From: Pelatocladus maniniholoensis HA4357-MV3
GTDB taxonomy: Bacteria; Cyanobacteriota; Cyanobacteriia; Cyanobacteriales; Nostocaceae
NCBI GenBank assembly: GCA_019359115.1
Contig: JAHHHW010000085.1
Span: forward strand, 1 to 64,000
Reading direction: 5' to 3'
DNA length: 64,000 bases
Every line of letters starts with the position of its first letter. Positions within the stretch are counted from its first letter, which is position 1. Below are positions 3,746 to 62,811 of this stretch, in pieces. The translations under genes and the position numbers were made by a program. A model generated the notes under the pieces. That model had not been told where the DNA came from. It did no database searches and saw nothing but the letters and a program-made list of their open reading frames with translations.

Positions 3746-5230
3746 ATGACAGAACGAGCCTATTATGACTACATCGTTATTGGTGCGGGTTCGGCTGGGA
3801 GCATAGTTGCTTCAAAGCTTGCTGCTTATGATTCAGGTATGAGTATTCTCCTGATTGAAGCTGGGGGAACTCCAGACAACACAAAGATGTGGATACCAAG
3901 CGACTGGTTTGAAGTTTTACAGAAATGTCCAGAAATTGAATGGGGTTATCAGTCAGTACCCCAACCCAATTTAAACAATCGTGTCATTCAGCTAGCGCAA
4001 GCAAAAGTTTTAGGTGGGTGTGGGCTACATAATGCTATGGTCTACGTGCGGGGTAGCAAATCCGATTTTGACACGTGGGGCAAGGTAGCACCCGGCTGGT
4101 CATGGAATGATGTTTTGCCACACTTTCAAAAAATAGAGGAAACCATGAAAGTGTTGATAGGAGAAGCAGATGAGTTCATCAATGATTTGTTTACTGCTGC
4201 AAAGCAATATGGCTTGCCTTATAATCCCAACTACAATACCAGCAATAGTCAATATGGATACGCTCTATTTCAATTTAACATCACTAATTCACCCAATTTT
4301 ATTCGAGAAACCACATACAGCACTTTCCAGCCAGAACAATATCAGAATGTAACGGTGCTAAGTCAGGCTTTTGTGACGCGAATCTTATTTGAAGATACTA
4401 AAGCAATTGGTATTGAATATGTCAAAGAAGGTCAACAACAGCTTGCTTACATACAAAATGAAATTATTCTGAGTGCCGGAGCGATCGCAAGTCCAAAAAT
4501 ATTGATGCTTTCGGGTATCGGTGATGAAAACGAGTTAGCAAAATTTAATATTTCTGTAGTTGCGAATCTTCCAGAGGTAGGTCGGAATTTACATGACGAT
4601 ATTTTTGTCAGTGCTGGATTTTCTATTTCCCCAAACAAAGATGTACCATTCTATTCCTATAGTCTAGCCCCAGCCGTTATCTTCAGTCATACAGAAAATA
4701 GTAGTTCCGTTATTGATATAGAATCCTCAGTAGGTGTTGGAACACTAAAAGGTTTCCCAGGTTTAGAACGTTCTTTTTGGTTGTGGCCAAATATTATGCA
4801 CCTGAAGAGTACGGGAACTGTTAACCTGCGTTCCAGAGATCCTGATGACTCTCCTCTGATTGATCCAGGATATCTGACGAAACCAGGAGATATGCAGATG
4901 TGTAAAAAGGCACTTCAGTTAGGGATCGACATTGGCAATCAACCAGGCTTGAGCCAATGGCGGGAAAAGCAAATTGCTCCAGAACCGGGGGCAGATTTGG
5001 AGAGTTACATCAGAAAAACAGCCGATACGACACAGCACTATTGCGGGACTTGCAGGATGGGGGTTGATGAGAATTCCGTAGTGGACACAGAACTCAAGGT
5101 GCGCGGTACATCAGGATTGCGTGTAATTGACTCTTCGGTGTTTCCTTTGTCAATAACCGCAAATACGGCAGCAGCAACCATGATGATTGCTGATAAGGGG
5201 ACTGACATTATAATGAGTTCGTTACAATAA
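3746..5230 (+). CDS. GMC-family FAD-dependent oxidoreductase
   Basis: This is a glucose-methanol-choline oxidoreductase that oxidises an alcohol group using FAD. The N-terminus has the Rossmann motif YIVIGAGSAGSIVASKLA. The GMC signature is LGGCGLHNAMVYVRG, with Gly-Cys-Gly where Gly-Ser-Ser is usual. The C-terminus has HYCGTCRMG with the candidate catalytic His, and SITANTAAATMMIADKG. At 494 residues it is slightly shorter than the 510-560 typical of choline dehydrogenases. The frame also allows a GTG at 3728, six codons earlier. I prefer the ATG because the protein then begins MTERAYYDY as relatives do, although the AGGTGG at 3726-3731 is spaced rather far from it. The substrate cannot be inferred. 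Confidence 0.85.
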   Translation: MTERAYYDYIVIGAGSAGSIVASKLAAYDSGMSILLIEAGGTPDNTKMWIPSDWFEVLQKCPEIEWGYQSVPQPNLNNRVIQLAQAKVLGGCGLHNAMVYVRGSKSDFDTWGKVAPGWSWNDVLPHFQKIEETMKVLIGEADEFINDLFTAAKQYGLPYNPNYNTSNSQYGYALFQFNITNSPNFIRETTYSTFQPEQYQNVTVLSQAFVTRILFEDTKAIGIEYVKEGQQQLAYIQNEIILSAGAIASPKILMLSGIGDENELAKFNISVVANLPEVGRNLHDDIFVSAGFSISPNKDVPFYSYSLAPAVIFSHTENSSSVIDIESSVGVGTLKGFPGLERSFWLWPNIMHLKSTGTVNLRSRDPDDSPLIDPGYLTKPGDMQMCKKALQLGIDIGNQPGLSQWREKQIAPEPGADLESYIRKTADTTQHYCGTCRMGVDENSVVDTELKVRGTSGLRVIDSSVFPLSITANTAAATMMIADKGTDIIMSSLQ

Positions 5231-5966: not shown

Positions 5967-8966
5967 ATGACCGCAACAATGATTAATCTCCCTAGTCAGT
6001 ACAATCCCTTTACCACTGAAGCCAAGTGGCAAAAATTTTGGGAAGAAAATCAAATCTACAAAGCTGACCCCCAAGCAGGCGGTGAATCTTACTGCATCGT
6101 CATCCCACCACCCAATGTCACTGGTAGCTTGCACATGGGTCACGCTTTTGACAACAGTTTAATTGATAGCCTCGTGCGCTATCACCGCATGAAGGGAGAT
6201 AATGCTCTTTATCTGCCCGGAACTGACCACGCTAGCATCGCTGTCCATACGATATTGGAAAAGCAACTTAAGTCAGAGGGCAAAACTCGCTATGAATTAG
6301 GACGTGAGAAATTTCTAGAACGTGCTTGGCAGTGGAAGGCAGAATCTGGGGGAACAATTGTTAATCAACTGCGACGTTTGGGTGTGTCGGTAGATTGGTC
6401 GCGGGAACGTTTTACCCTAGATGTAGGTTTAACTAAAGCTGTTTTGGAAGCTTTTAACCGTCTTTACGAAGAAGGACTGATTTATCGTGGTAAATATTTA
6501 GTCAACTGGTGTCCTGAGTCACAATCAGCTGTTTCTGATTTGGAAGTGGACGCCAAAGAAGTTGATGGTCATCTTTGGCACTTCCGTTATCCGTTGACTA
6601 ATGGTTCTGGTTATGTAGAGGTGGCGACGACTCGACCAGAAACCATGCTAGGTGATACGGGGGTGGCAGTAAATCCCAATGATGAACGTTATCAGCATTT
6701 GATTGGAAAAACTCTCACGTTGCCTATTATGAATCGGGAAATTCCGATTATTGGCGATGAGTTGGTTGACCCCAGTTTTGGGACTGGTTGCGTGAAGGTG
6801 ACTCCTGCCCATGATCTGAATGATTTTGAAATGGGTAAACGTCACAATCTGCCGTTTATCAATATTATGAATAAGGACGGCTCTCTAAATGAGAATGCTG
6901 GTGAGTTTCAAGGACAAGATCGCTTTGTTGGTAGAAAGAATGTAGTTGACCGCCTGGAGGCAGATGGTGTTCTGGTGAAGGTGGAAGATTATAAGCATAT
7001 GGTTCCTTATAGTGAGCGTGGTAAAGTTCCGGTAGAACCTTTGCTTTCAACACAATGGTTTGTCGCCATCCGCCCGATGGCAGACCGGGCGCTGGAATTC
7101 CTCGACGAGAAAAATTCACCCCGGTTTGTGCCTCAACGCTGGCATAAAGTCTATCGTGATTGGTTGGTGAAGTTGAAGGATTGGTGTATTTCTCGGCAAT
7201 TGTGGTGGGGACACCAAATCCCGGCTTGGTACGCTGTAAGTGAAACGGGTGATGAGATTACCGATAACACGCCGTTTGTTGTGGCGCGGAGTGAGTCAGA
7301 AGCACGGGAAAAGTTAATATCACGATTTGGAGAAAATGTCAAGGTAGAACAAGAGCCAGATGTGCTGGATACTTGGTTTTCTTCTGGATTGTGGCCGTTT
7401 TCAACTTTGGGCTGGCCGGAACAAACCCCGGATTTAGCAACTTTTTACCCGAATAGTACTTTGGTAACTGGTTTTGACATCATCTTTTTCTGGGTTGCAA
7501 GAATGACGATGATGGCGGGACATTTTACCGGACAAATGCCATTTAAAGATGTTTACATCCACGGATTGGTGTTGGATGAAAATGGTCAAAAGCAATCCAA
7601 GAGTAAGGGTAACGGTATTGACCCGTTATTGTTAATTGATAAGTACGGCACAGATGCTCTGCGCTATACGATGATTAGGGAAGTAGCGGGCGCGGGTCAA
7701 GATATCCGTATGGATTACAATCGTAAGACCGACGAGTCGCCTTCTGTGGAAGCGTCCCGCAATTTTGCTAATAAGCTATGGAATGCGGCCCGGTTCGTGA
7801 TGATGAATTTAGATGGACAGACGCCACAGCAATTAGGAGAACCAACCAATACAGAGTTGAGCGATCGCTGGATTCTTTCGCGTTATTACGGTGTTGTGCA
7901 GCAAACGCGCAATTATATGGATAATTACGGTTTGGGTGAAGCTGCGAAGGGTTTGTATGATTTCATCTGGGGTGATTTTTGTGACTGGTATATTGAACTA
8001 GCTAAATCTCGCTTGCAAAAGAATGCTGATCCTGTATCGCGACGGGTTGCACAACAAACTTTAGCTTATGTGCTGGAAGGGATTTTGAAGCTACTTAATC
8101 CTTTTATGCCTCATATTACTGAGGAAATTTGGCACACTCTCACCCAACAAGGAGAAGATACTCAACAAAGTTTATCTTTACAACAGTATCCAGAAGCACA
8201 GACAAATTTAATAGATGCTGGGTTAGAAGAACAGTTTGAACTATTGATTGGTACAATCCGCACTATTCGCAACTTACGTGCCGAAGCGGATGTTAAACCA
8301 GGGGTGAAAGTCAATGTAAATTTGCAAAGCGACAGCTTCCAAGAAAGGCAAATTCTGACCACGGGACAATCTTATATTAAAGATTTGGCAAAGGTTGAGA
8401 ATTTAATGATCGCTGTTGGCGAGAATAAACAACAGGAAGAAAAACCTCGAATTGCTTGGAAGACTATCGCCTTAGTTCTCGCAGCAATTTACTTTTTCCG
8501 AATTGGTCTAGCGATCGCCGATGCGATTGATGATATTGCGTTGTTGGGAAATTTCTTTGAACTTGTCGGTTTTGGTTACGCTGCGTGGTTTGTCATCCGG
8601 TATTTACTATCTGCTGAGGCTAGACAAATATTCTGGCAACAGTTTCAATCATCTCAAAAAAGCCTACCACAATCAGAAGAATCACAACTGCCACAATCAA
8701 AAGAACAAGCGATCGCAGGCGTAGTTGGTACAGTACAAGTCTTACTCCCTCTTGCAGGTGTCGTAGACATTCAAGCTTATACCACCAAACTGCAAAAACG
8801 CCTTAGCAAACTGGAAGCGGATATTAAGGCTCTGACTGCTAGGTTAAGTAATCCTAAATTTGTTGAACAAGCTCCAGCAAATGTGGTGCAGGAAACACGA
8901 GACACTTTAGCAGAAGCTCAAAAGCAAGCTGAAATCTTGCGCGATCGCTTGCGTCAGCTAGCATAA
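5967..8966 (+). CDS. valS: Valyl-tRNA synthetase with inserted CAAD membrane domain
   Basis: This class I synthetase charges tRNA-Val. [15 protein letters not shown] (residues about 48-62) is the HIGH motif and [13 protein letters not shown] (about 540) is the KMSKS motif, followed by the editing and anticodon-binding regions. Between the anticodon domain and the C-terminal coiled coil (about 930-999), residues about 818-911 hold an extra domain with two hydrophobic segments ([20 protein letters not shown] and [16 protein letters not shown]). This matches the position and character of CAAD, the cyanobacterial aminoacyl-tRNA-synthetase appended domain known to anchor such enzymes in thylakoid membranes. 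At 999 residues it is about 100 longer than a plain ValRS. Membrane location is inferred from the domain. Confidence 0.95.
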
Positions 8967-13449: not shown

Positions 13450-14727
13450 TTAAAATCTCTGTCCAGCAAAAATTGATCGTACTTCGCCGTTGCGGCGGAT
13501 GATTGCTTCTTTGTTTGCAACATCTACTAGTGTCCAACCACTAGAACCGATGCTTTCACCAATATCAACGCGCTGAGTCACACCATTGACTTGAAATAAA
13601 GCAGCAGATTTGAATTTATTCTCTGACTCTAGCAATCCCTCAAGGATATATGTAGAAGTAGGAGCAGATGCAACAGCTGTCGTTGTCACTTCTGTTTTTA
13701 CTGGTGTTGGCTGTTGGTTGGTGGTTGGTTTGGTTTCTTGTCTGACTGTAATTGGTGCAGTTTTCATCTCTATGGGTTTCAGGCTTGGTTGCACTAGTGC
13801 TAAGGTGTTCGCAGGTTTAGTTGATTTTATGCTAGTTTTGGGAGAAGGTTTGACGACAGATGTAGGTTTTTTAGGTGTATTTGTTGTCTTTTGATTAATA
13901 GCAGATGGCATTGGTGGCAAAGTTGTGCTATTGCTACCAGAAACCTTGGGAGGTACATAGCGCATAGGTAATGGCGCTTGATAAACAGGGATATAGATGC
14001 GCTCAACAACGTTTGTGGAACGACTCGGAGTCGGAGATGTGTTGTTGGCGGTCAAAACTGGTGGTAGGTTAGCAGGAGGTTGGTCATTCCTGACATAAGC
14101 TAAGGCTGTGCGGTTTGTTGTGACTGCGGGTGTCAGTGCAACATTGACAGGCTTAATATTAGTTTTGGCTTCTTGTCTGTCTATGGCTGCAAGCGAACCC
14201 AACATATAATTCACGAAATCTGCTTCTATTTCTGCTTTTGTGGGTAATTTTGCTTGCGGTGCTTCTAAAGTTTGCTGGAAAGAGGTGGATTTGACGCGGT
14301 TGAGTAAACCAGAGTTCGTTAACCAGACAATGCTGGCGATCGCTAATCCTAAGCTTGTTCCCACGTTCAGCATTTGACTGAACCAGTGTCGTGATTTTGG
14401 GCGTACTCTCTTCACAACTTTGCTGACAGGAGCAGTATTTACTACTACTGCATTGTGGTTGTTTCTATAGTGCGACACTGTTTGTAGGCTTCGCCACGGT
14501 TTCTCTGGCAAGACAATTGGCGGTATCTTTACTGTTTGTAGATGCGTGTGTGTTTGCTGCACTATGTGTGAAGGTAGATTGGGGCTACCATCTAAAATCG
14601 AGTCTATCTCGGCAAATAGATCATCCATAAAACCATCGGCGTAGGTTTCTATCGTCCAAGGTTCACTGGCGATTAATTCATCTGATGGTTCTGGAATAAT
14701 AAGATTTGTGCTGGCTTGTTGAGACAT
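13450..14727 (-). CDS. Single-pass membrane protein with GspC/PilP-like C-terminal domain
   Basis: This is a 425-residue protein. Residues 1-118 are hydrophilic and cytoplasmic, about 119-140 form one membrane helix (LGLAIASIVWLTNS), and about 145-350 are rich in Pro, Thr, Lys and Asn and look disordered. The last 70 residues form a small globular domain (YILEGLLESENKFKSAALFQ ... SIFAGQRF). Its pattern of strands, GxxV/ALF and terminal AGQRF, resembles the periplasmic domain of secretion and pilus proteins such as GspC/PilP. That assignment is a resemblance from memory, not a firm match. It lies downstream of mnmG on the same strand, 226 bases away, with its own leader. Confidence 0.6.
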   Translation of the reverse strand: MSQQASTNLIIPEPSDELIASEPWTIETYADGFMDDLFAEIDSILDGSPNLPSHIVQQTHTHLQTVKIPPIVLPEKPWRSLQTVSHYRNNHNAVVVNTAPVSKVVKRVRPKSRHWFSQMLNVGTSLGLAIASIVWLTNSGLLNRVKSTSFQQTLEAPQAKLPTKAEIEADFVNYMLGSLAAIDRQEAKTNIKPVNVALTPAVTTNRTALAYVRNDQPPANLPPVLTANNTSPTPSRSTNVVERIYIPVYQAPLPMRYVPPKVSGSNSTTLPPMPSAINQKTTNTPKKPTSVVKPSPKTSIKSTKPANTLALVQPSLKPIEMKTAPITVRQETKPTTNQQPTPVKTEVTTTAVASAPTSTYILEGLLESENKFKSAALFQVNGVTQRVDIGESIGSSGWTLVDVANKEAIIRRNGEVRSIFAGQRF

Positions 14728-14953
14728 AACGATTTTCAGTTTTAGCTTCGTCGGGGAACTAATGAATTGTTAGCCCTGTGTACTGATCTGGGAGCAAACA
14801 CCTATTACCCCGTCTCAGTTAGACGAGTTGATGAGGGATTTGGTATTAAATTCGACTTGTAGTCAGGAGGATGTATGATCATGTTCAGTATATACTGATG
14901 TCATCGATCATACTAAACTATACCCTGATATACCCCACAACTATACTCCCGCT
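14728..14953 (-). promoter_or_regulatory. Leader of the GspC-like gene with a 14-bp palindrome
   Basis: This stretch contains the perfect palindrome TCAGTATATACTGA (14885-14898), flanked by the looser repeat ATGATCAT/ATCGATCAT, and a small hairpin CGTCT/AGACG near 14812-14826. It is a candidate operator and 5' leader for the minus-strand gene at 14727. I match it to no known riboswitch. Confidence 0.4.
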
Positions 14954-16891
14954 TCATAAAGTTTTTTGGGAAGCCAAAGCTGAAAATTCAGTATCCGTCT
15001 TTGTTCTACGCAATTCTAAATAAATTAACAAAGCATTAATATCTGCTGGATTTACACCACCGATACGTGCGGCTTGACCAATTGTCAAGGGTTTTACCTT
15101 AGTGAGCTTTTCCCGTGCTTCTTTAGAAAGGGTATCAATTGCTCCATAATCTAAATCAGGTGCTAAGTGACGATTGGCCTGACGAGCAATCTGCTCAATT
15201 TGATTTTGCTGTCTAGCTAGATAACCAGAATACTTGATATCAATTTCTGCACCTTCTGTTTCAGCACGGTCAAGCTTGGGATTTGCCAGTCCATAGGTGT
15301 TGAGGTCTAAATAATGAAAGCCTGGGCGCCGTAACAAGTCAGCGAGGGTAATCGAACCTTTAATTGCTTGTCCAGTTGCTTGTGCGATCGCTTTGCCAAT
15401 TTGATCATGTTCTTTCACCCGGATGCTGTGCAAACGTTCTTTTTCGGCGGTGATATTTGCTTGCTTGCGGCTAAATAATTCCCAACGGCGATCGTCAATT
15501 AAACCAATTTCTCTTCCCAATGGTGTTAGGCGTTGGTCAGCATTATCAGAACGTAAAATTAAACGATACTCTGACCTACTAGTTAACATCCGGTAAGGCT
15601 CCCGCAAGTCTTTTGTACACAAGTCATCAACCAATGTACCGATGTAACTTTCTTCACGCGGGAACACAATCATCGCTGCTCCACGCACAAATCGCGCCGC
15701 ATTAATTCCCGCTACAATACCTTGGGCTGCGGCTTCTTCGTAGCCAGTTGTACCGTTAATTTGTCCTGCACAAAACAGTCCTGCTACCTTCTTTGTCATC
15801 AGAGTGGGAAAACACTGAGTTGCAGGCAAATAATCATACTCAACAGCATAAGCTGGACGTAGCATGATACAGTTTTCTAAACCAGGCAGACTCCGCAACA
15901 TTTGCAATTGCAAGTTTTCTGGTAATCCTGTAGAAAACCCTTGAATATAAAGTTCTGGTATATCTCTACCTTCCGGTTCGATAAATATTTGGTGGCTTTC
16001 CTTGTCAGCAAAGCGCACAATCTTATCTTCAATACTAGGACAGTAGCGCGGCCCTTTTGCTTCTACCCAACCACCATACACTGGTGATAAATGTAGATTT
16101 TCTCGAATCAGACGATGGGTTTCGGCTGTTGTCCGCGTCATGTGACAAGGCATTTGTTCTCTTTCTATCCACACTTGGGGGTCAAAGCTAAACCAACGCA
16201 CATCTGTATCCCCCGGTTGAGGTTCCAATTTACTGTAGTCTACAGACCGTTTGTCAACTCGTGCAGGAGTACCCGTCTTCAAGCGACCAGTCTCAAAACC
16301 CAAGCGTTGCAGAGTTTCGGTTAACTCAACAGCAGCAAATTCCCCAGATCTTCCGGCTGACATCGACTTGTTACCAACCCAAATTTTGCCACCCAAGAAC
16401 GTACCAGTTGTGAGAATGACTGCTTTGCACTGGAACCCTACACCAAAATAAGTCTGAACGCCGATAACTTCATCGTTAGCACCCAGCACTAAATCTGTAA
16501 CCATCCCCTCACGCACAGTTAAATTTTCTTGATTCTCAACAATTCCCTTCATCACTGCTGCGTATTCCCGCTTATCAGTCTGAGCGCGTAAGGCCCACAC
16601 CGCAGGTCCTCGCGAAGAATTGAGAATCCGCTTTTGCAAATAGGTGCGGTCTGCTATTTTACCTATTTCTCCGCCGAGTGCATCTACCTCATGGGTCAAC
16701 TGAGATTTGGCAGGTCCACCCACTGCTGGGTTACAAGGTTGCCAAGCAATTTTATCTAAGTTGAGTGTCAACAGCATGGTACGGCAACCAAGGCGTGCTG
16801 TCGCAAGTGCTGCTTCACAACCAGAGTGACCAGCACCAACAACAATGACATCAAAAGCCTCTTGGAAATCTATAGAATTGTGCATGGTCAT
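14954..16891 (-). CDS. mnmG: tRNA uridine-5-carboxymethylaminomethyl(34) synthesis enzyme MnmG (GidA)
   Basis: This FAD enzyme works with MnmE to put the cmnm5 group on wobble uridine of several tRNAs. The N-terminus has [20 protein letters not shown] (FAD-binding). [20 protein letters not shown] and the segment [20 protein letters not shown] are MnmG/GidA signatures, and the helical C-terminal domain that contacts MnmE and tRNA is complete. At 645 residues it is the usual length. Two Met codons (16891 and 16885) are possible starts. MnmE is not in this window. Confidence 0.97.
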
Positions 16892-54872: not shown

Positions 54873-56054
54873 ATGACAAAAACTATTAGTAGTCGCGAGG
54901 GGTTAAGTCAACCGCTGCAACCATCTTCTGGCTTAATCTTTGCTCATCAGCAAAGCGATGAAGTTCATAACCATAAGGGTGAAGTATCTACACGGTCAAC
55001 AGCACAATCAATGCTTGGCAAGCTCAAAATTACTCATGTAACTCAAGGCCGCGTGCGAATCCGTGCCACTGACGTCAGTCATAACTCGATACTAGAAAGT
55101 TTATCCCGGCAATTACGGCAGCATCACGGTGTAACGGAAGTTACGACTAATAATAAAACCAGCAGTTTGCTGGTTAAATTTGATGAAACTAGGCTGTCTT
55201 TGCCACAGATGTTGGCAATACTGCAAGAGTTTGGCATTCAGCAATATCAAGCTGTCTGTGATTCAGAAAATAATAGTGATCCATTCGCTGCTTGGAAATC
55301 TGTAGAATTTTGGAAAGAGCAAGGACTTTCGTTTATTCCTTTATTTGCAGGGTTAGGAGTGACAGGGGCGATAGGAATTAACGGGTTGGCAGCAATTCCG
55401 GTATACATGATTACAGCAGACGCTACCCGACGTGTGATTGACTATATAGAACCTCAATTATTGGGATCTAAAAAGAATAAAAAATTGAATACAGCTTCTG
55501 CAACGCAATCAATAACAAAACATCAAGTGACACCTCAAATATCTTTAGCAAAAGTGGAGCAAATTACAACTGTCAAACGAGAATTATTGCCAGCAAAAAA
55601 TGTGGACAATGCAAAGATTACTTACAACATTGTTCATGCAATTCCGGGGCGTATTAGGATGAGCGTACCAAAACTAGCTCATGACCGAAATTACGCAAAA
55701 CGCTTGGAGAGATTGCTTGAAGCTGATCCCCAAGTTACAAACGTACGTATCAATTGTGATGCAGCATCAGTGGCGATCGCCTATCAACCGAACAATATCA
55801 AAGCGTCTCGCTGGGTTGATTTGATGCAACTAGCACAGAAGGAGACGACTGCACCACTGCAAACGACTAAGCAACCGCAAGTAGACGCGGTAACACAAAG
55901 ACACACAGAAGCACAGCAGCAAAAAAAATTCCAGACAACAAAAGTGGAATCAACACCAGAGATAACTGGTTTATGGGCTAATTTCAAAGCTCCAGCTTTG
56001 TCTTATGCTCTCGCCTTTATGGCGAACTTTCCTATTAATGCAGCCCCGGACTGA
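54873..56054 (+). CDS. Protein with two HMA-like domains and a membrane segment
   Basis: This is a 393-residue protein. The first HMA-like domain (about 50-128) begins KITHVTQGRVRIRATDVSHN. A hydrophobic stretch (about 155-185, FIPLFAGLGVTGAIGINGLA) may insert in the membrane. The second HMA-like domain (about 250-330) reads IVHAIPGRIRMSVPKLAHD and VRINCDAASVAIAYQP. Both have the beta-alpha-beta-beta-alpha-beta pattern of heavy-metal domains but lack CxxC, and the conserved feature is PGRIR/QGRVR. I associate this with the HMA_2 family. The tail is low-complexity (Gln/Thr). It is the first gene of a five-gene same-strand cluster ending at 61432. Confidence 0.72.
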   Translation: MTKTISSREGLSQPLQPSSGLIFAHQQSDEVHNHKGEVSTRSTAQSMLGKLKITHVTQGRVRIRATDVSHNSILESLSRQLRQHHGVTEVTTNNKTSSLLVKFDETRLSLPQMLAILQEFGIQQYQAVCDSENNSDPFAAWKSVEFWKEQGLSFIPLFAGLGVTGAIGINGLAAIPVYMITADATRRVIDYIEPQLLGSKKNKKLNTASATQSITKHQVTPQISLAKVEQITTVKRELLPAKNVDNAKITYNIVHAIPGRIRMSVPKLAHDRNYAKRLERLLEADPQVTNVRINCDAASVAIAYQPNNIKASRWVDLMQLAQKETTAPLQTTKQPQVDAVTQRHTEAQQQKKFQTTKVESTPEITGLWANFKAPALSYALAFMANFPINAAPD

Positions 56055-56069
56055 GGAGGGAGGAAAGCA

Positions 56070-57380
56070 ATGGTTGGATCGATATTACGACTGGTATCTA
56101 CCCCAGAAAAAAAAACCCAAGTAAGAGTCACGCAGCATACTGATCACACTGAGCAGAAATCACCCCAAGAAGTCTACAGCATTACCTATGCAATGTCAGG
56201 ACAAATCGGGTTGTGCGTACCTCGTATTTCCAGAGATTCTAGATATCTGGAACGACTTGGGAAGCTACTGAAAGCAGAAGCTTCAGTTACAAATGTGCAA
56301 ATCAATAGTACTGCTGCATCTGTGGTAGTGACTTACAACTCTAGAGAAATGTCGGATGATGAGATGCGATCGCATCTCACTAATCTGATTCAATCTGCTG
56401 CACAAGAGCCAGTAACGATTCAACCAGGAAATTCCTACTCCAAAACTAGTCAAATACAAAGCGGACAGATTAAGTCTACTGAACTTGAACTGACAAAAGA
56501 AACTTATAGCATTACCTATGCAATGTCAGGACAAGTCGGGTTTTGTGTTCCTCGCATTTCCAGAGATGATAAATATCAAGAGCGTCTTGTAAAGTTGTTG
56601 AAAGCAGAGGCTTTGGTTACGAAGGTGCAAATAAATATCACTGCTGCGTCTATTGTGGTAATCTACAAATCTGGAGTCATGTCAGATTATGAGATGCGAT
56701 CGCATCTAGTGAATCTGATTGAATCTGGCAGAGAACAGCCAGTAACGATACAACCAGCGAATTCATACCCAATAGTTAACCAAACAGAAAATGTACAAAA
56801 ACAAGATCAGGAGAAATTACCAGTTCTCCCTGCATCTTCCCATCCTCTGGTTACAAGATGTTTTAATACCACTGCTGTTAAGGAAATGGCAGTTGCAACA
56901 ATTACAGAACGCAAATTTGTATTTAGCAGAAACTTGCCTCAAGTAAGTATAAACAAGCAAGCATCCTCCGAAATTCATAACGGTGAAAACCAGAGTTCTT
57001 GTTTATCTACAGCAAAAATCCTGCCAGAGTCTTCATCTGGCCCTGACTCTGCTTTGCTTCCCCAGAAAACAGAACACAAAGCAAAGCAGCCAGATCACAA
57101 AGTAGCTTATAGCATTGCTCACGTCATTCCGGGAAGAATTCGTTTTCACGTGCCTCGGATCGCTCGTGATCCCAAATATGTGCAATGCTTAGAGGCTTTA
57201 TTAAAAGCAGATCCAACAGTCATCGGCGAACGAGTCAACCGTGCAGCAGGATCAATAGTCATCACTTACAAATCTGCGGTGAAAGCCAATACCAAAGATT
57301 GTGATCGCAGTGTTTTGGAAGCTGCAATATCCCATTTAGCAAATCTGCTGCAATCTGCTAGTGATGTAGCAGTTGCTTAA
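56070..57380 (+). CDS. Protein with three HMA-like domains
   Basis: This is a 436-residue soluble protein. Domains 1 and 2 (about 36-112 and 147-225) are recent duplicates (YSITYAMSGQIGLCVPRISR and YSITYAMSGQVGFCVPRISR; the DNA is also closely similar). Domain 3 (about 348-430) is the canonical form (SIAHVIPGRIRFHVPRIARD). All lack CxxC. In domains 1 and 2 a single Cys follows the motif, and PGR is changed to SGQ. A Ser/Lys/Gln-rich linker separates 2 and 3. The gap to the previous gene is 15 bases, and GAGGAGGGAGGAAAG is a strong ribosome-binding site, so the two are one operon. Confidence 0.72.
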   Translation: MVGSILRLVSTPEKKTQVRVTQHTDHTEQKSPQEVYSITYAMSGQIGLCVPRISRDSRYLERLGKLLKAEASVTNVQINSTAASVVVTYNSREMSDDEMRSHLTNLIQSAAQEPVTIQPGNSYSKTSQIQSGQIKSTELELTKETYSITYAMSGQVGFCVPRISRDDKYQERLVKLLKAEALVTKVQINITAASIVVIYKSGVMSDYEMRSHLVNLIESGREQPVTIQPANSYPIVNQTENVQKQDQEKLPVLPASSHPLVTRCFNTTAVKEMAVATITERKFVFSRNLPQVSINKQASSEIHNGENQSSCLSTAKILPESSSGPDSALLPQKTEHKAKQPDHKVAYSIAHVIPGRIRFHVPRIARDPKYVQCLEALLKADPTVIGERVNRAAGSIVITYKSAVKANTKDCDRSVLEAAISHLANLLQSASDVAVA

Positions 57381-57688
57381 CTGCAAAGAACCCAAAAGCA
57401 GGAATTTTTCAACAAAATACAGGCTTGAAGACACTGTTTGTAATAAGGACTTTAGTCCTCACTACAAACCATCTTCTCGTCGCCAATAAACCTCTTTGCA
57501 GGTTAAAGGGGAAAGGATTTTTCAATTCCTTTATACCAATTCACTAAAATCAAGCAACAAATGCAAACTGTAAAACTCAGATACCATCTGATTTTCTGAA
57601 TTTTGAATTTTGAATTGGTATTAATCCTTACCCCGACTTCTGCAAGAAGTCTAATTGTTCACCAATATTTTTTTATGAGAGAGAAGCA
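57381..57688. other. Repeat-bearing gap upstream of the P-type ATPase
   Basis: 57436-57475 is an inverted relative of the GGACTTTAGTCC repeat at 34686-34740. 57535-57625 contains an ATACCAATTC to GAATTGGTAT inverted pair and simple TTTTGAATT words. No gene is seen. Confidence 0.55.
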
Positions 57689-59923
57689 ATGGTACAAGTT
57701 AAGGTGGGTCTACCATCCTCCGCAGGTCAAGTTTCACAACTGAATTTGACCCAAAAGCATGGAAAAGCCCATTTTATAGAATATAAGGGACATTCACGCA
57801 CTCATCTTCCCAAAGTAGACTATACTGTTATCCATACAATTCCGGGAAGAATACGGTTACGAGTACCTCGCTTGCGTCATAATCCAGACTACGCACAGCG
57901 CCTCCAAGTTCTGCTAGAAGCAGATGCGTTAGTCACATCCTTGCGACTCAAGCCAGCTGCTGCATCGGTTGCGGTTACTTATAACCCTAAAACAGTTTCA
58001 GAATTTAAGCTACGCCATCATCTAGGCCATGTATTTCAATCCGCAGCAGAAGTTGTGGTTTTAAAGCCAACAACCCAAAAAACCACAAAAGAAACACAGA
58101 CATCTTGGCCTGGATTACAACTTTCTGGCGCTGCTACTGCTTTGGCTGTGCTGGGTGGCCCATTGGGTTTAACCATTCCGCCGATTTTGATGGTAGGAAC
58201 CATTTCTCTTGCTACCTTGCCTGTTCTTCAACGTGCTTGGAAAGGAATTACACTAGAGAGAAAACTAAATATAGACTTTTTGGATTTGATTGCGATCGCC
58301 ATTACGACAATCCAAGGTAGATTTCTCGCACCAGCATTAATGCTGAGTTTAATTGATATTGGTGAAAAGATTCGCGATCGCACAGCTCGTTGTTCAGCAC
58401 AGCAAACTTTAGATTTGCTCAGTTCCCTGGGACAATTCGCCTGGGTAGAACGAGATGGTGAAAAACAACAAATACCCATTCACGAAGTGCAGCGTGGCGA
58501 TATTGTCATTGTCTATCCAGGAGAACAAGTCCCAGTTGACGGGACAATCTTGCGGGGGAAAGCGCTACTGGATGAACAAAAACTAACTGGCGAATCCGTA
58601 CCTGTATTCAAAACCAAGGGACAAAACGTCTTCGCTTCTACCTTGGTACGGGAAGGACGCATGTATATTTTGACAGAACGAGTTGGCAATGATACACGTG
58701 CCGGGAAAAGTCTCCAGTTGATGGAGCAAGCTCCTGTCCACGATACCCGGATGGAAAACCATGCAGCTACAGTAGCACAAAAAACAGTATTGCCAACTTT
58801 GTTACTAGGAGTAGCAGTATTTGCCCTGACTCGCAACCCAGCCAGAGCCGCCAGTGTCCTGACTCTAGACTTTGCTACAGGAATTCGGGTATCTGTACCA
58901 ACTACTGTTTTGGCAGCTCTTACCCATGCAGCAAAACGCGGTGTTTTAATCCGCAGTGGTAGAGCGCTAGAGCAACTGGCACAGCTAGATACCATTATCT
59001 TTGATAAAACTGGTACACTCACTCAAGGGGAAGCTGCTGTTGTTGGTGTCGAAAGTCTCAATCCTGCCGTCTCTTCTCTAAGAGTGCTGCAACTAGCTGC
59101 AACTGCTGAACAGCGTCTAACTCACCCTGTTGCAGAAGCAGTCATGCGCTATGCCGAAGCTCACAAAGTTGAGATGTTACCGCGTAGCAAATGGGACTAT
59201 CAGCTAGGCTTAGGGGTAAAAGCAGAGATCGACGGCGAAACAGTTTTTGTGGGTAGTGAACGTTTCCTGCGTCTTCAAGAAATAGACATGTCCGGCTTGG
59301 AAGGACATCAAAAACCTGATTCGGCAATTTATGTTGGCAGCAATGGTCAAGTTTTAGGTATAATAGAATATAGTGACTTATTGCGTCCCGAAAGCCGCGA
59401 AGTTATTAGCAGACTGTTAACGGTGGAAAATGTGGAAGTACACATGCTCACCGGAGACAATCAGCAGACTGCTAATGCTGTAGCCGCACAGCTTGGAATT
59501 GCCCCAAGTCATACTCACGCCGAAGCTTTTCCTGAGCAAAAAGCAACAGTTGTCCGTGAATTACACGAACAAGGCAAGACAGTTGCATTTGTTGGCGATG
59601 GCATAAATGATTCACCTGCTTTAGCATATGCTGATGTTTCCGTTTCCTTCGCCAACGGTTCCGATATTGCTCGTGAAACAGCAGATGTGGTACTGATGCA
59701 CAATAACTTGCATGGGTTACTAGAAGCGATCGCGATCGCTCGCCAAACCAAGCAATTAATTCAGCAAAATACGGGTATTATTGCCATTCCTAACTTAGCT
59801 GCTTTGATGGTAGCCGTATTTTTTGGGCTGAATCCTTTAGCAGCAACAGTAGTTAACAACGGTTCCACAGTTGTTGCGGGAGTCAATGGTTTACGTCCAC
59901 TTCTCAAACCAACAAATGTTTAA
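57689..59923 (+). CDS. P1B-like P-type ATPase with N-terminal HMA-like domain and altered CPC motif
   Basis: This is a 744-residue membrane ATPase. An HMA-like domain (about 45-125, VIHTIPGRIRLRVPRLRHNP) precedes the transmembrane helices. It has the actuator motif KLTGESVPVF (about 300), phosphorylation loop IIFDKTGTLTQGEA (about 437), LTHPVAEAV (the P1B-type HP motif) and GDGINDSPALAYADV (about 636). The transmembrane metal-site position, CPC in most P1B pumps, here reads TLDFATGIRVSVPT (about 392): no Cys and an Asp at the start. The ion moved is therefore not predictable from sequence. It is in the same-strand cluster with HMA-like proteins and DUF5132, pointing to a dedicated transport complex. 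Confidence 0.86.
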   Translation: MVQVKVGLPSSAGQVSQLNLTQKHGKAHFIEYKGHSRTHLPKVDYTVIHTIPGRIRLRVPRLRHNPDYAQRLQVLLEADALVTSLRLKPAAASVAVTYNPKTVSEFKLRHHLGHVFQSAAEVVVLKPTTQKTTKETQTSWPGLQLSGAATALAVLGGPLGLTIPPILMVGTISLATLPVLQRAWKGITLERKLNIDFLDLIAIAITTIQGRFLAPALMLSLIDIGEKIRDRTARCSAQQTLDLLSSLGQFAWVERDGEKQQIPIHEVQRGDIVIVYPGEQVPVDGTILRGKALLDEQKLTGESVPVFKTKGQNVFASTLVREGRMYILTERVGNDTRAGKSLQLMEQAPVHDTRMENHAATVAQKTVLPTLLLGVAVFALTRNPARAASVLTLDFATGIRVSVPTTVLAALTHAAKRGVLIRSGRALEQLAQLDTIIFDKTGTLTQGEAAVVGVESLNPAVSSLRVLQLAATAEQRLTHPVAEAVMRYAEAHKVEMLPRSKWDYQLGLGVKAEIDGETVFVGSERFLRLQEIDMSGLEGHQKPDSAIYVGSNGQVLGIIEYSDLLRPESREVISRLLTVENVEVHMLTGDNQQTANAVAAQLGIAPSHTHAEAFPEQKATVVRELHEQGKTVAFVGDGINDSPALAYADVSVSFANGSDIARETADVVLMHNNLHGLLEAIAIARQTKQLIQQNTGIIAIPNLAALMVAVFFGLNPLAATVVNNGSTVVAGVNGLRPLLKPTNV

Positions 59924-60062
59924 AAGTTGGTTGTTGATTGTTGCTTGTAAACTATCAATAAAATTAAAAATCTCTATCGACAGCAAGATGAAATATTCAT
60001 CTCAAATGAATTAAGATTAGAGGTTTTAATAGAAAGTTCAATTCACGTGAGGTTAATAAATA

Positions 60063-60359
60063 ATGGCACCGAAAATTACTGACTTTGTAGAAGATGCTGG
60101 CGCACCTGGAATTATTGCAGGTATTGGTGCGGTCATTTTAGCACCCGTTGTGATTCCAGTAGTAGCAGGAGTTGGTAAACCAATTGCTAAATCTTTGATC
60201 AAAGGTGGACTTGTTCTTTATGAAAAGAGCAAAGGAGCTTTTGCAGAATTAGGCGAAAATTGGGAAGACATGGTAGCTGAAGCTAGAGCAGAACTTGCTG
60301 AATCTAAGCAACTGCCAGCTGTTGAAGCTGCTGATAATATATCTGACAATGGTGCATAA
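60063..60359 (+). CDS. DUF5132 small membrane protein
   Basis: This is a 98-residue protein. A hydrophobic Gly/Ala/Val segment (about 13-48, GIIAGIGAVILAPVVIPVVA) is followed by an acidic helix (GENWEDMVAEARAELAESKQ). I associate it with DUF5132. The same order (Gly/Ala-rich membrane helix, then a D/E-V/M-VAEAR helix) is seen in mycobacterial PacL (DUF1490) proteins that scaffold P-ATPases; that similarity is from memory. It follows the P-type ATPase by 139 bases on the same strand. A GAGG site lies close upstream of the ATG. Confidence 0.75.
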   Translation: MAPKITDFVEDAGAPGIIAGIGAVILAPVVIPVVAGVGKPIAKSLIKGGLVLYEKSKGAFAELGENWEDMVAEARAELAESKQLPAVEAADNISDNGA

Positions 60360-60494
60360 CACGCTTGTTGGGTAAAGTTTAAAGGGCAAAGGGAAAAGGA
60401 AAGTTTTTCACTTTAGCCCTTTAACAATTTTGGCTTTTGGACTTCGTCGTAAGCGCTCAGTCGAACGATTTTGGATTGAATCCATTGAATTTGG

Positions 60495-60546
60495 GAGACT
60501 GCGATTCAAATCGCAGTCTCATAGCTAAAGTCTGCTTAAGCAGACT
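60495..60546. repeat. Two adjacent perfect palindromes
   Basis: GAGACTGCGATT pairs with AATCGCAGTCTC (60495-60520), and AGTCTGCTTAAGCAGACT is self-complementary (60529-60546). Together they could fold as a double hairpin in the mRNA between the DUF5132 and HMA-like genes. Confidence 0.8.
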
Positions 60547-60662
60547 ATTAGACATCTGGTGAAAAAGAATATAAAAGCCTTATGTAGTCAGGGTCGATAT
60601 CCCATTTCTGGAGAGGTCTATTTGATTGATTGAGTCGTCTTTATACGACTTGTGCTATTAGC

Positions 60663-60757
60663 TATAGCGGTTCTCGCTCAGATGAGGTACATTCTCAAAG
60701 TTGAAATGATTTATCTATGAAGTCTAGCTATACTTCATTAGCATAGGAAACGCTATA
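60663..60757. repeat. 95-bp MITE-like element with TATAGCG ends, copy B
   Basis: The left end TATAGCGGTTCTC (60663-60675) is inverted at the right end as GGAAACGCTATA. Its length and ends match the element at 32032-32125, while the interior differs. Confidence 0.65.
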
Positions 60758-60847
60758 AGGGTTTAAACCCTTAGTGATATATTGAAAAAATCGGGATGCT
60801 CCCTTCGATTGAAATAAATTTTGTAATTACTCAAGGAGAGTGGTTAC

Positions 60848-61432
60848 GTGTTGAAAAATGGTAATGGCACTCTTACTCAGATGCCAAAAACAATGTCGGA
60901 AAAAATCATCAAAAGACGCCCTAAACCAATACTGACAAAAATTGTTAGTAATACTCCGGGTAGGTTACGTTTGCGAGTTGCTCATTCCCATCGTCAAAAG
61001 GAAGAAATGCAACGTCTCGCCAAAACATTAGAAGCAAATCCTAGTATCAATAATGTGCGGATGAATGTTCAGCAAGGGAGTATTACCATCCAGCACAATC
61101 GGGACGATGAGAGTTTCAAAAATGTTCTCACTACCCTATATGATTTAGGGATAATTTTTGCTGATATTACAGGTGGAAAATCTGAAGCAGCAGCAGGAGT
61201 ATCAGATTCAATTGTTGATTTGAACAAGCGAGTCCACGATGCAACCAAGGGTTTAATTGACTTACGAATCATTATGCCCATAGGACTTGCTACCCTTTCG
61301 ATTCGCCAGTTACTCATCAAAGGTTTGCAATTAGAAATTATTCCCTGGTATGTGTTGGCATGGTATGCATTTGATAGTTTCATCAAGCTGCATGGTACAA
61401 CAAGCCAATCAACATCTACGAGTGAAGAATAG
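60848..61432 (+). CDS. HMA-like domain protein with C-terminal hydrophobic segments
   Basis: This is a 194-residue protein. An HMA-like domain (about 35-100) shows KIVSNTPGRLRLRVAHSHRQ and NNVRMNVQQGSITIQ, again without CxxC. Two weaker hydrophobic stretches follow (about 140-160, LIDLRIIMPIGLATLSI, and about 165-180, EIIPWYVLAWYAFD). The start is GTG at 60848 with AAGGAG about 10 bases upstream. It is the last gene of the HMA/P-ATPase cluster. It is likely a membrane-attached accessory protein; function unknown. Confidence 0.72.
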   Translation: MLKNGNGTLTQMPKTMSEKIIKRRPKPILTKIVSNTPGRLRLRVAHSHRQKEEMQRLAKTLEANPSINNVRMNVQQGSITIQHNRDDESFKNVLTTLYDLGIIFADITGGKSEAAAGVSDSIVDLNKRVHDATKGLIDLRIIMPIGLATLSIRQLLIKGLQLEIIPWYVLAWYAFDSFIKLHGTTSQSTSTSEE

Positions 61433-61737: not shown

Positions 61738-62811
61738 ATGAAAAAACTTATTAACAATCCGCCTGATTTTGTGCGCGAAAGTTTAGAAGGTATGGCGATC
61801 GCTCACCCAGATTTAATTAAAGTCAATTTTGATCCTAATTTTGTCTATCGAACTGATGCACCGATCAAAGGTAAAGTAGCAATTATATCTGGGGGTGGTA
61901 GTGGACACGAACCGATGCACGCTGGTTTTGTGGGAATGGGAATGCTCGATGCTGCTTGTCCTGGTGAGGTTTTTACTTCGCCTACCCCTGACCAAATGCT
62001 CGCAGCAGCAAAAGCTGTAGATAGTGAAGCAGGTATTTTATACATCGTGAAGAACTACTCCGGCGATGTGATGAATTTTGAAATGGCGACAGAGTTAGCT
62101 CGAAGTGAAGGTATCCAGACGCTGAATATCTTAATCGATGATGATGTTGCAGTCAAAGATAGTCTTTATACCCAGGGACGACGGGGTGTCGGAACTACAG
62201 TACTAGCAGAAAAAATCTGTGGTGCAGCAGCGCAAGAGGGATATAATTTACGACAACTAGCTTCTTTGTGTAGGCGCGTCAATTTACATGGACGAAGTAT
62301 GGGTATGGCCCTGACTTCCTGTACAACACCAGCCAAAGGTACACCAACGTTTACACTTGGGAACCAAGAAATGGAGATCGGTATCGGGATTCACGGTGAA
62401 CCCGGAAGGGAACGCATGAGTCTAAAATCAGCAGATGAAGTTGCTGAGATGTTAGCGCTATCAATTATTGAGGATGCATCTTATACTCGGACACTACGAG
62501 AATGGGACGAAAAAACAGGCGAATGGCAAGAAGTGGAACTGGTAAATGCAAATTTTGTCAAAGGCGATCGCTTGCTAGCTTTTGTTAATAGTATGGGTGG
62601 TACGCCGATTTCTGAGTTGTATATCATCTACCGCAAACTCGCAGAAATTTGTCAACAGCATGGACTACAAATAGTGCGAAACTTGATTGGTGCTTATATT
62701 ACTTCCTTAGATATGCAAGGTTGCTCTATTACTCTACTCAAGCTAGATGACGAGATGATTCGCTTATGGGACGCACCTGTAAAAACCCCAAGCTTACGGT
62801 GGGGAATTTAA
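61738..62811 (+). CDS. dhaK: Dihydroxyacetone kinase subunit DhaK
   Basis: This is a 357-residue substrate-binding subunit. [20 protein letters not shown] and [15 protein letters not shown] are family landmarks, and [13 protein letters not shown] includes the His that binds dihydroxyacetone covalently as a hemiaminal. DhaK works with DhaL (ADP-binding) and, in phosphotransferase-dependent systems, DhaM. None of these is adjacent: the next gene is on the opposite strand. dhaL must be elsewhere, or this protein acts alone on a related substrate. Confidence 0.92.

Follow-up and report, generated by a model that had tools for sequence, protein, structure and literature searches.

A five-gene cyanobacterial cluster with a P1B-6-like ATPase, DUF5132, and CxxC-less HMA_2 domains resembles ferrosome-type operons

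Introduction

Ferrosome (fez) operons with a P1B-6 ATPase, FezB, were reportedly described by Grant et al. in 2022 and Pi et al. in 2023, and Rhodopseudomonas palustris is a published ferrosome maker. CoBaHMA domains, described around calcyanin, share the HMA fold, but conserved basic residues stand where CxxC would be. Here we compare with these systems a five-gene cluster of the filamentous cyanobacterium Pelatocladus maniniholoensis HA4357-MV3, which lies on the plus strand at positions 54873 to 61432 of a 64,000-nucleotide stretch of contig JAHHHW010000085.1 (referred to as the window) and encodes HMA_2-type proteins, a P1B-type ATPase, and a small DUF5132 membrane protein. On the evidence of its sequence, the cluster is very probably a cyanobacterial variant of the ferrosome/fez kind of P1B-6 platform, with the PacL-CtpC system as a more distant relative.

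In the portions of the literature available for this comparison, ferrosomes, FezB, and FezC, a DUF4405-like cytochrome, are treated together (PMC10979944), and the ferrosomes of C. difficile are stated to require FezA and FezB, both of which are repressed by Fur (PMC12574912). Ferrosome work is also cited in a section of PMC12748827. Excerpts of PMC9374683 and PMC13043812 describe how PacL1 (DUF1490) brings copies of the P1B pump CtpC together in patches of the membrane for mycobacterial metal efflux, and state that DUF6110 proteins, which are related to PacL, are mostly encoded with P1B6 ATPases. The parts of PMC13052382 and PMC9160268 that were consulted contain no report of cyanobacterial ferrosomes, which does not establish their absence from print; neither “CoBaHMA” nor “DUF5132” turned up in the literature searched.

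Results

The third open reading frame of the cluster (ORF3; 57689 to 59923, plus strand) encodes a 744-residue P1B-6-like ATPase with an N-terminal HMA-like domain (57827 to 58009). The catalytic motifs TGES, DKTGT, HP, and GDGIND are kept, the phosphorylation motif DKTGT (D439) lying at 59003 to 59017. The NCBIfam assignment, heavy metal translocating P-type ATPase, is given at the subfamily level and so does not settle the metal. CPC is lacking from the M4 segment (58856 to 58906), which reads LDFATGIRVSVPT where that motif is expected. While M4 carries DFxTGIR or a near variant in the cyanobacterial set, most fez-type relatives have DYxCxLK, and canonical pumps have CPC, SPC, or CPH. The M4 aspartate, D394, was invariant in an alignment of 31 relatives from five phyla, as were H49, R54, and R56 of the HMA-like domain. 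In the M6 segment (59852 to 59869), where the excerpted sources locate the HN motif of P1B6 ATPases (PMC9374683, PMC13043812), the window has NNG(ST) and many relatives have HNG, within IHNG.

A phylogenetic tree of 49 ATPase sequences was inferred with E. coli CopA and ZntA and five pumps of the window's own genome as references, two of the five being KdpB-like and one having SPC in M4; named FezB, P1B-4, or P1B-5 references were not part of the set, seven rows were flagged for long branches, and 16 for odd composition. The cyanobacterial ATPases formed one clade (100/100), which joined the fez-type clade of other phyla via Deinococcus and Methylobacterium (99/96). Basal in the P1B-6-like clade of 42 rows were Priestia and a DUF1490-linked pump of Rhodococcus (94/95, not starred). 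CopA, ZntA, the KdpB-like pumps, and the other three pumps of the same genome all fell outside. By this placement, ORF3 belongs to the P1B-6-like clade, and its cyanobacterial clade is sister to the ATPases of fez-type operons, one of them from Rhodopseudomonas sp.

Other ATPases of related build were seen in passing. The genome of P. maniniholoensis has a P1B-6-like paralogue devoid of DKTGT, TGES, and GDGIND, an apparent pseudo-ATPase (locus L056, contig C30, 7992 to 9980), in a region that also contains a CAX (Na_Ca_ex) gene, a SERCA-like ATPase, and a DUF5132-like gene. Two more P1B-6-like ATPases with HMA_2 domains are encoded at 4031 to 15232 of contig C35 (L053), followed by two genes read from sequence as universal-stress-like and then by a CAX (Na_Ca_ex) gene. 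Eleven of the 33 HMA_2-containing cyanobacterial genomes encode SERCA-like ATPases that have an HMA_2 domain at the N terminus (L054 on contig C83 of the window's genome, L072, L087, L089, and L213 to L219). In all 11 of these loci the next gene on the same strand is metK, encoding S-adenosylmethionine synthetase, with one small opposite-strand frame in between in L218. A DUF5132 protein is encoded just upstream of the SERCA-like ATPase in five of them, and in four of those five it is fused to a tail of the type found in ORF5 of the window.

Relatives of ORF3 outside the cyanobacteria were sought by scanning 84,980 species genomes for the M4 region of the ATPase. The scan yielded 117 relatives. 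The best 80 were analyzed together with five loci from plasmid records, and an ATPase reading frame was found in 84 of the resulting 85 loci. Judged by their titles, the 80 are mostly Alphaproteobacteria and Campylobacterota; they include Rhodopseudomonas sp. BR0M22. Among the 84 loci, a DUF5132-like gene is present in 80, a separate HMA-like gene in 75, DUF2202 in 39, and a DUF4405-like gene in 29, counts for which both DUF5132 profiles described below were used, with queries drawn partly from the same loci. FUR was found in 18 loci, FeoA and FeoB in nine each, and FeoC in five. In epsilonproteobacterial and alphaproteobacterial operons, HMA_2 and FUR scored above their Pfam cut-offs, while DUF2202 (21.2 of 22 bits) and DUF4405 (E 0.0036) stayed below. 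A plasmid copy in Cereibacter is surrounded by genes for FeoA, FecR, and two TonB siderophore receptors.

Genes of iron metabolism also adjoin cyanobacterial members. Relatives of the cluster outside the family Nostocaceae, to which P. maniniholoensis belongs, lie next to feoA, feoB, feoC, ferritin, and DUF2202 genes. A FeoA gene is located within 10 kb of an HMA_2 gene in 14 of the 33 HMA_2-containing genomes (10 genera), against 0.47 expected under random placement. In this figure and in the co-occurrence figure below, genomes of one genus count separately. Within the family, genome G078 has an orthologous cluster immediately behind feoA-feoB, with, in order, a divergent P1B-6 ATPase gene, feoA, feoB, a gene for a two-domain HMA protein, a P1B-6 ATPase gene, DUF5132, an HMA gene, and dhaK; two more genomes of the family, both of one genus, have a P1B-6 ATPase gene divergent from feoA-feoB. 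DUF2202 is present in eight of 194 cyanobacterial genomes and, in G008, G111, and G172, lies next to the cluster. The earlier note on this DNA had left the substrate as not known; these neighbors now give a lead, and it is iron. FeoB itself is apparently split at two loci: L059 encodes a membrane part devoid of the GTPase domain (6799 to 8274), and L085 a separate FeoB_N protein followed by a 484-residue frame of a FeoB-like group (13684 to 15866).

The fourth reading frame (ORF4; 60063 to 60359, plus strand) encodes the 98-residue DUF5132 protein (Pfam, 65.8 bits against a cut-off of 25). It has one hydrophobic helix (residues 17 to 35) and a conserved acidic tail rich in Ala and Glu. There is neither Cys nor His in it, and hence no C-terminal metal-binding motif like that of PacL; DUF1490 was not matched in Pfam at E ≤ 1. 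To find counterparts, a DUF5132 profile was run on 3,340 reading frames (60 to 400 amino acids, all frames) of the 85 noncyanobacterial loci. It matched 41 of them at E ≤ 0.01, 39 of which adjoin the ATPase by a scripted rule satisfied by 190 of the 3,340 frames, and it matched none of 1,900 shuffled sequences at the same threshold. Conversely, a profile made from the fez-side matches, whose members had been preselected with the DUF5132 profile, ranked 36 DUF5132 frames first among 1,869 cyanobacterial frames. In Pfam, the small protein of Azospirillum gave YtxH (E 1.9e-4) and DUF5132 (E 0.0026), both below cut-off, and values were weaker in Sulfurovum (YtxH, E 0.09) and Rhodopseudomonas (DUF5132, E 0.09). 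The DUF1490 protein of Rhodococcus, a member of the PacL family, aligns to the DUF5132 profile over its length with an E value of 0.012 at Z 3340 and an hhalign probability of 26.8, a weak similarity that is suggestive only. A second small family, whose N terminus is like MSLIHWDKSV and which is weakly similar to DUF5132, recurs in clusters of other cyanobacterial families (L059, L061, L071, L074, L075, L076, L078, L079, L080, L082, L085, and L086).

Seven HMA_2 stretches were found by a Pfam protein scan and a genome scan. ORF1 (54873 to 56054, plus strand; 393 amino acids) has two, at 55014 to 55205 and 55620 to 55811, separated by its single hydrophobic stretch (residues ~151 to 175). Three are located in ORF2 (56070 to 57380, plus strand; 436 amino acids), which has no hydrophobic segment by the Kyte-Doolittle scale, one in the ATPase, and one in ORF5 (60848 to 61432, plus strand; 194 amino acids, GTG start), where Pfam places it at 60938 to 61363. 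ORF1, ORF2, and ORF5 score above 30 bits, the HMA_2 cut-off; the ATPase stretch is weaker (28.4 bits in the protein scan and 29.7 in the genome scan, or 30.1 with its neighbors), as are two of the three ORF2 domains (24.4 and 21.3 bits in the genome scan). CxxC occurs in none of the five proteins. GRxR is kept in five of the seven domains, and the first two domains of ORF2 have GQIG and GQVG with the arginines lost. The earlier note's account of at least seven HMA-like domains in four proteins, none with CxxC, was borne out. The absence of CxxC is a family trait, since only five of the 111 proteins labeled HMA or DUF5132 in the window and 35 other DUF5132-centered regions have any CxxC. Besides its HMA_2 domain, ORF5 has a conserved C-terminal tail modeled as three helices; confidence in the ORF5 model is low (pLDDT 66.0), and it had no PDB match at E ≤ 0.001, copper chaperones being among the weak matches.

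HMA_2 and DUF5132 have nearly the same distribution in cyanobacteria. Across 194 genomes, HMA_2 was found in 33 and DUF5132 in 32, with both in 32 and DUF5132 alone in none; the single genome with HMA_2 alone has a score below cut-off. Fisher's test gave a P value of 8e-36, a figure that ignores the kinship of the genomes. Of the 41 places at which DUF5132 occurs in the 194 genomes, 36, the window among them, were read as long regions and five were left out. An intact P1B-type ATPase with an HMA-like N terminus is present in 21 of these 36 regions and a broken or partial one in two; three regions have a SERCA-like ATPase, and three have HMA proteins and no ATPase.

Gene order is kept within the family. 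In 20 hand-picked Nostocaceae loci, all with strong DUF5132 matches, a two-domain HMA protein, DUF5132, and an ORF5-type protein (HMA plus tail) are encoded in the same order on one strand in every case. The ATPase is present in 19, the twentieth locus lacking the ATPase only, and def lies directly upstream in 18. The counterpart of ORF2 is variable, the second HMA protein being missing or shorter in several loci of the family. Across the family, 101 of 145 genomes have DUF5132, as do 47 of 56 genera. Chance clustering was rejected on the basis of the co-occurrence across 194 genomes and the order kept in the family. A recent mobile island was also rejected, because 18 of 20 loci have the cluster downstream of def in one and the same arrangement and because the GC content (0.38 to 0.45) is within the range of the window. 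A plasmid copy was seen on Gloeothece verrucosa plasmid Cy782201 (L093), with genes for the ATPase, DUF1345, DUF5132, and an HMA2 protein followed by genes for an SDR protein and a YegS-type lipid kinase. In two loci of one genus, a short run of opposite-strand genes, two of which read as toxin-antitoxin-like, stands between the HMA gene and the ATPase (L061, 7423 to 8810; L062, 10326 to 11718).

In the window, the five plus-strand frames of 393, 436, 744, 98, and 194 amino acids confirm the gene content described in the earlier note, a P1B-like ATPase and a small DUF5132 membrane protein included; gaps of 308 and 488 bp break up the row. The upstream neighbors read as dnaA, htrA, and def, and the downstream one as dhaK, all named from their translations. 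The 488-bp gap between DUF5132 and ORF5 (60360 to 60847) is a patchwork of dispersed repeats, one piece of which (~60655 to 60757) forms a long hairpin when folded (z −2.7) and recurs at 95 to 100% identity on seven other contigs. Promoter-like sites are not enriched (14 versus 14.9 in shuffles). The dhaK gene (61738 to 62811) follows the cluster in several genomes of the family, and a dhaL-like second gene lies behind dhaK in five loci of the family (dhaK loci listed: the window, L058, L060, L063, L064, and L070).

Discussion

The comparison with fez-type operons comprises three gene kinds held in common (a P1B-6-like ATPase, one or more HMA_2-like proteins, and a DUF5132-like small protein adjoining the ATPase), a kept order, and the iron-gene neighbors of relatives. 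The description of the locus as a dedicated membrane transport platform therefore holds insofar as the genes stay together, co-occur across the phylum, and include an ATPase with its catalytic motifs. The earlier note's own counter-case, a system already described with such a composition, nevertheless applies in part: the fez system, and by resemblance PacL-CtpC, partly covers it. The cluster differs from fez in having seven HMA domains, partly decayed, which are more than fez has. A plain heavy-metal exporter was rejected because neither CPC nor CxxC is present.

As a whole, the locus is on balance best explained as a branch of fez-type P1B-6 systems in which Fe(II) would be carried through a membrane or into some compartment, and the cluster probably handles iron. 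DUF5132 would act on the ATPase as PacL acts on CtpC, gathering it into a membrane patch. Having a conserved patch of His and Arg but no CxxC, the HMA-like domains would not bind metal through thiols; they may instead dock on each other, on the ATPase, or on something anionic, for example phosphate or the head groups of lipids. At the expense of ATP, the pump would transport a divalent metal, Fe(II) being the likeliest, from the cytosol either across the membrane or into a membrane-bounded store. Because many relatives lie beside genes for Fe(II) uptake and iron storage, storage or buffering is favored over plain detoxification. That the cluster makes ferrosome-like compartments is a more doubtful proposal. 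Equally tentative is the wider idea that oxygenic cyanobacteria build ferrosome-like iron-storing compartments or iron-loading membrane patches, in which the multiplied HMA domains would be a scaffold docking via His/Arg on anionic lipid or phosphate and not thiol metal carriers.

Several observations weigh against this interpretation. The only FeoA match of the window's genome is on another contig, and 19 of the 33 HMA_2 genomes have no FeoA within 10 kb. Seven of the 36 DUF5132 regions contain neither HMA_2 nor a P1B ATPase inside the stretch read. The link of DUF5132 to the fez side was made with weak Pfam scores below cut-off (18.2 of 25 bits in L094; E 0.088 in L120). No match to DUF4405 (FezC) was found in the five proteins at a Pfam E value of ≤ 1, although with a DUF4405-like gene in 29 of the 84 fez-type loci, this component is not universal there either. 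The comparison was made with fez-type loci collected by the M4 scan and from plasmid records rather than with experimentally verified fez loci, and a compartment is so far hypothetical. Finally, DFxTGIR in M4 here versus DYxCxLK in fez-type ATPases means that the metal may differ; however, the feoAB-linked cyanobacterial members have the DFxTGIR of the window, so the M4 difference does not decide the metal.

It is unlikely that the cluster is instead an efflux platform of the PacL/CtpC type that forms no compartment, in which DUF5132 would cluster and stabilize a pump expelling a toxic metal other than iron (Zn, Cd, or Mn). The gathering of CtpC by PacL1 and the pairing of DUF6110 with P1B6 ATPases provide a precedent. 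In both systems a P1B-6-type pump is accompanied by a small membrane protein, part of which is acidic and rich in Ala and Glu; the place of the HN motif in M6 is shared as well. The alignment of the Rhodococcus DUF1490 protein to the DUF5132 profile and the basal position of its ATPase in the P1B-6-like clade fit this alternative as well. Yet that link has an E value of just 0.012, and no HMA_2 proteins are annotated beside the Rhodococcus DUF1490-ATPase pair. The pump of the window lacks both CPC and CxxC, whereas CtpC retains CPC according to the excerpted sources, which also give PacL a metal-binding tail that DUF5132 does not have (PMC9374683, PMC13043812). Moreover, relatives of the cluster adjoin ferritin-type genes and genes that serve the uptake of Fe(II).

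Still less probable is a system of the CoBaHMA kind concerned with calcium or lipid, in which the pump would move Ca2+ or work with anionic lipids. The HMA-like domains agree with it in lacking CxxC and keeping His/Arg, and the likeness to CoBaHMA and calcyanin extends to some such cyanobacterial domains being on P-type ATPases. The two P1B-6-like loci near CAX genes in the window's genome, which also count against iron, could point to calcium, and SERCA-like ATPases have the same two modules, HMA_2 and DUF5132, attached in 11 of the 33 HMA_2 genomes. The ATPase of the window, however, is P1B-type and not SERCA-like, its relatives have links to iron genes in several phyla, and the operon and the ATPase clade point to P1B-6 systems rather than to carbonate formation. 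That the genes share no function and are adjacent just by vertical descent near dnaA-htrA-def is highly improbable: the position behind def in 18 of 20 loci and the two gaps in the row would suit such a history, but the same partners recur elsewhere in other cyanobacterial orders and other phyla, and the phylum-wide profiles of HMA_2 and DUF5132 are nearly identical.

If the fez-type reading with iron as the substrate is right, a locus that is widespread in Nostocaceae would gain a testable role in iron handling, in organisms whose photosynthesis and nitrogen fixation are limited by iron. DUF5132 and the YtxH-like gene of fez-type operons would then represent one family of pump-gathering membrane proteins, perhaps including PacL, and the ferrosome kind of system would extend to oxygenic phototrophs.

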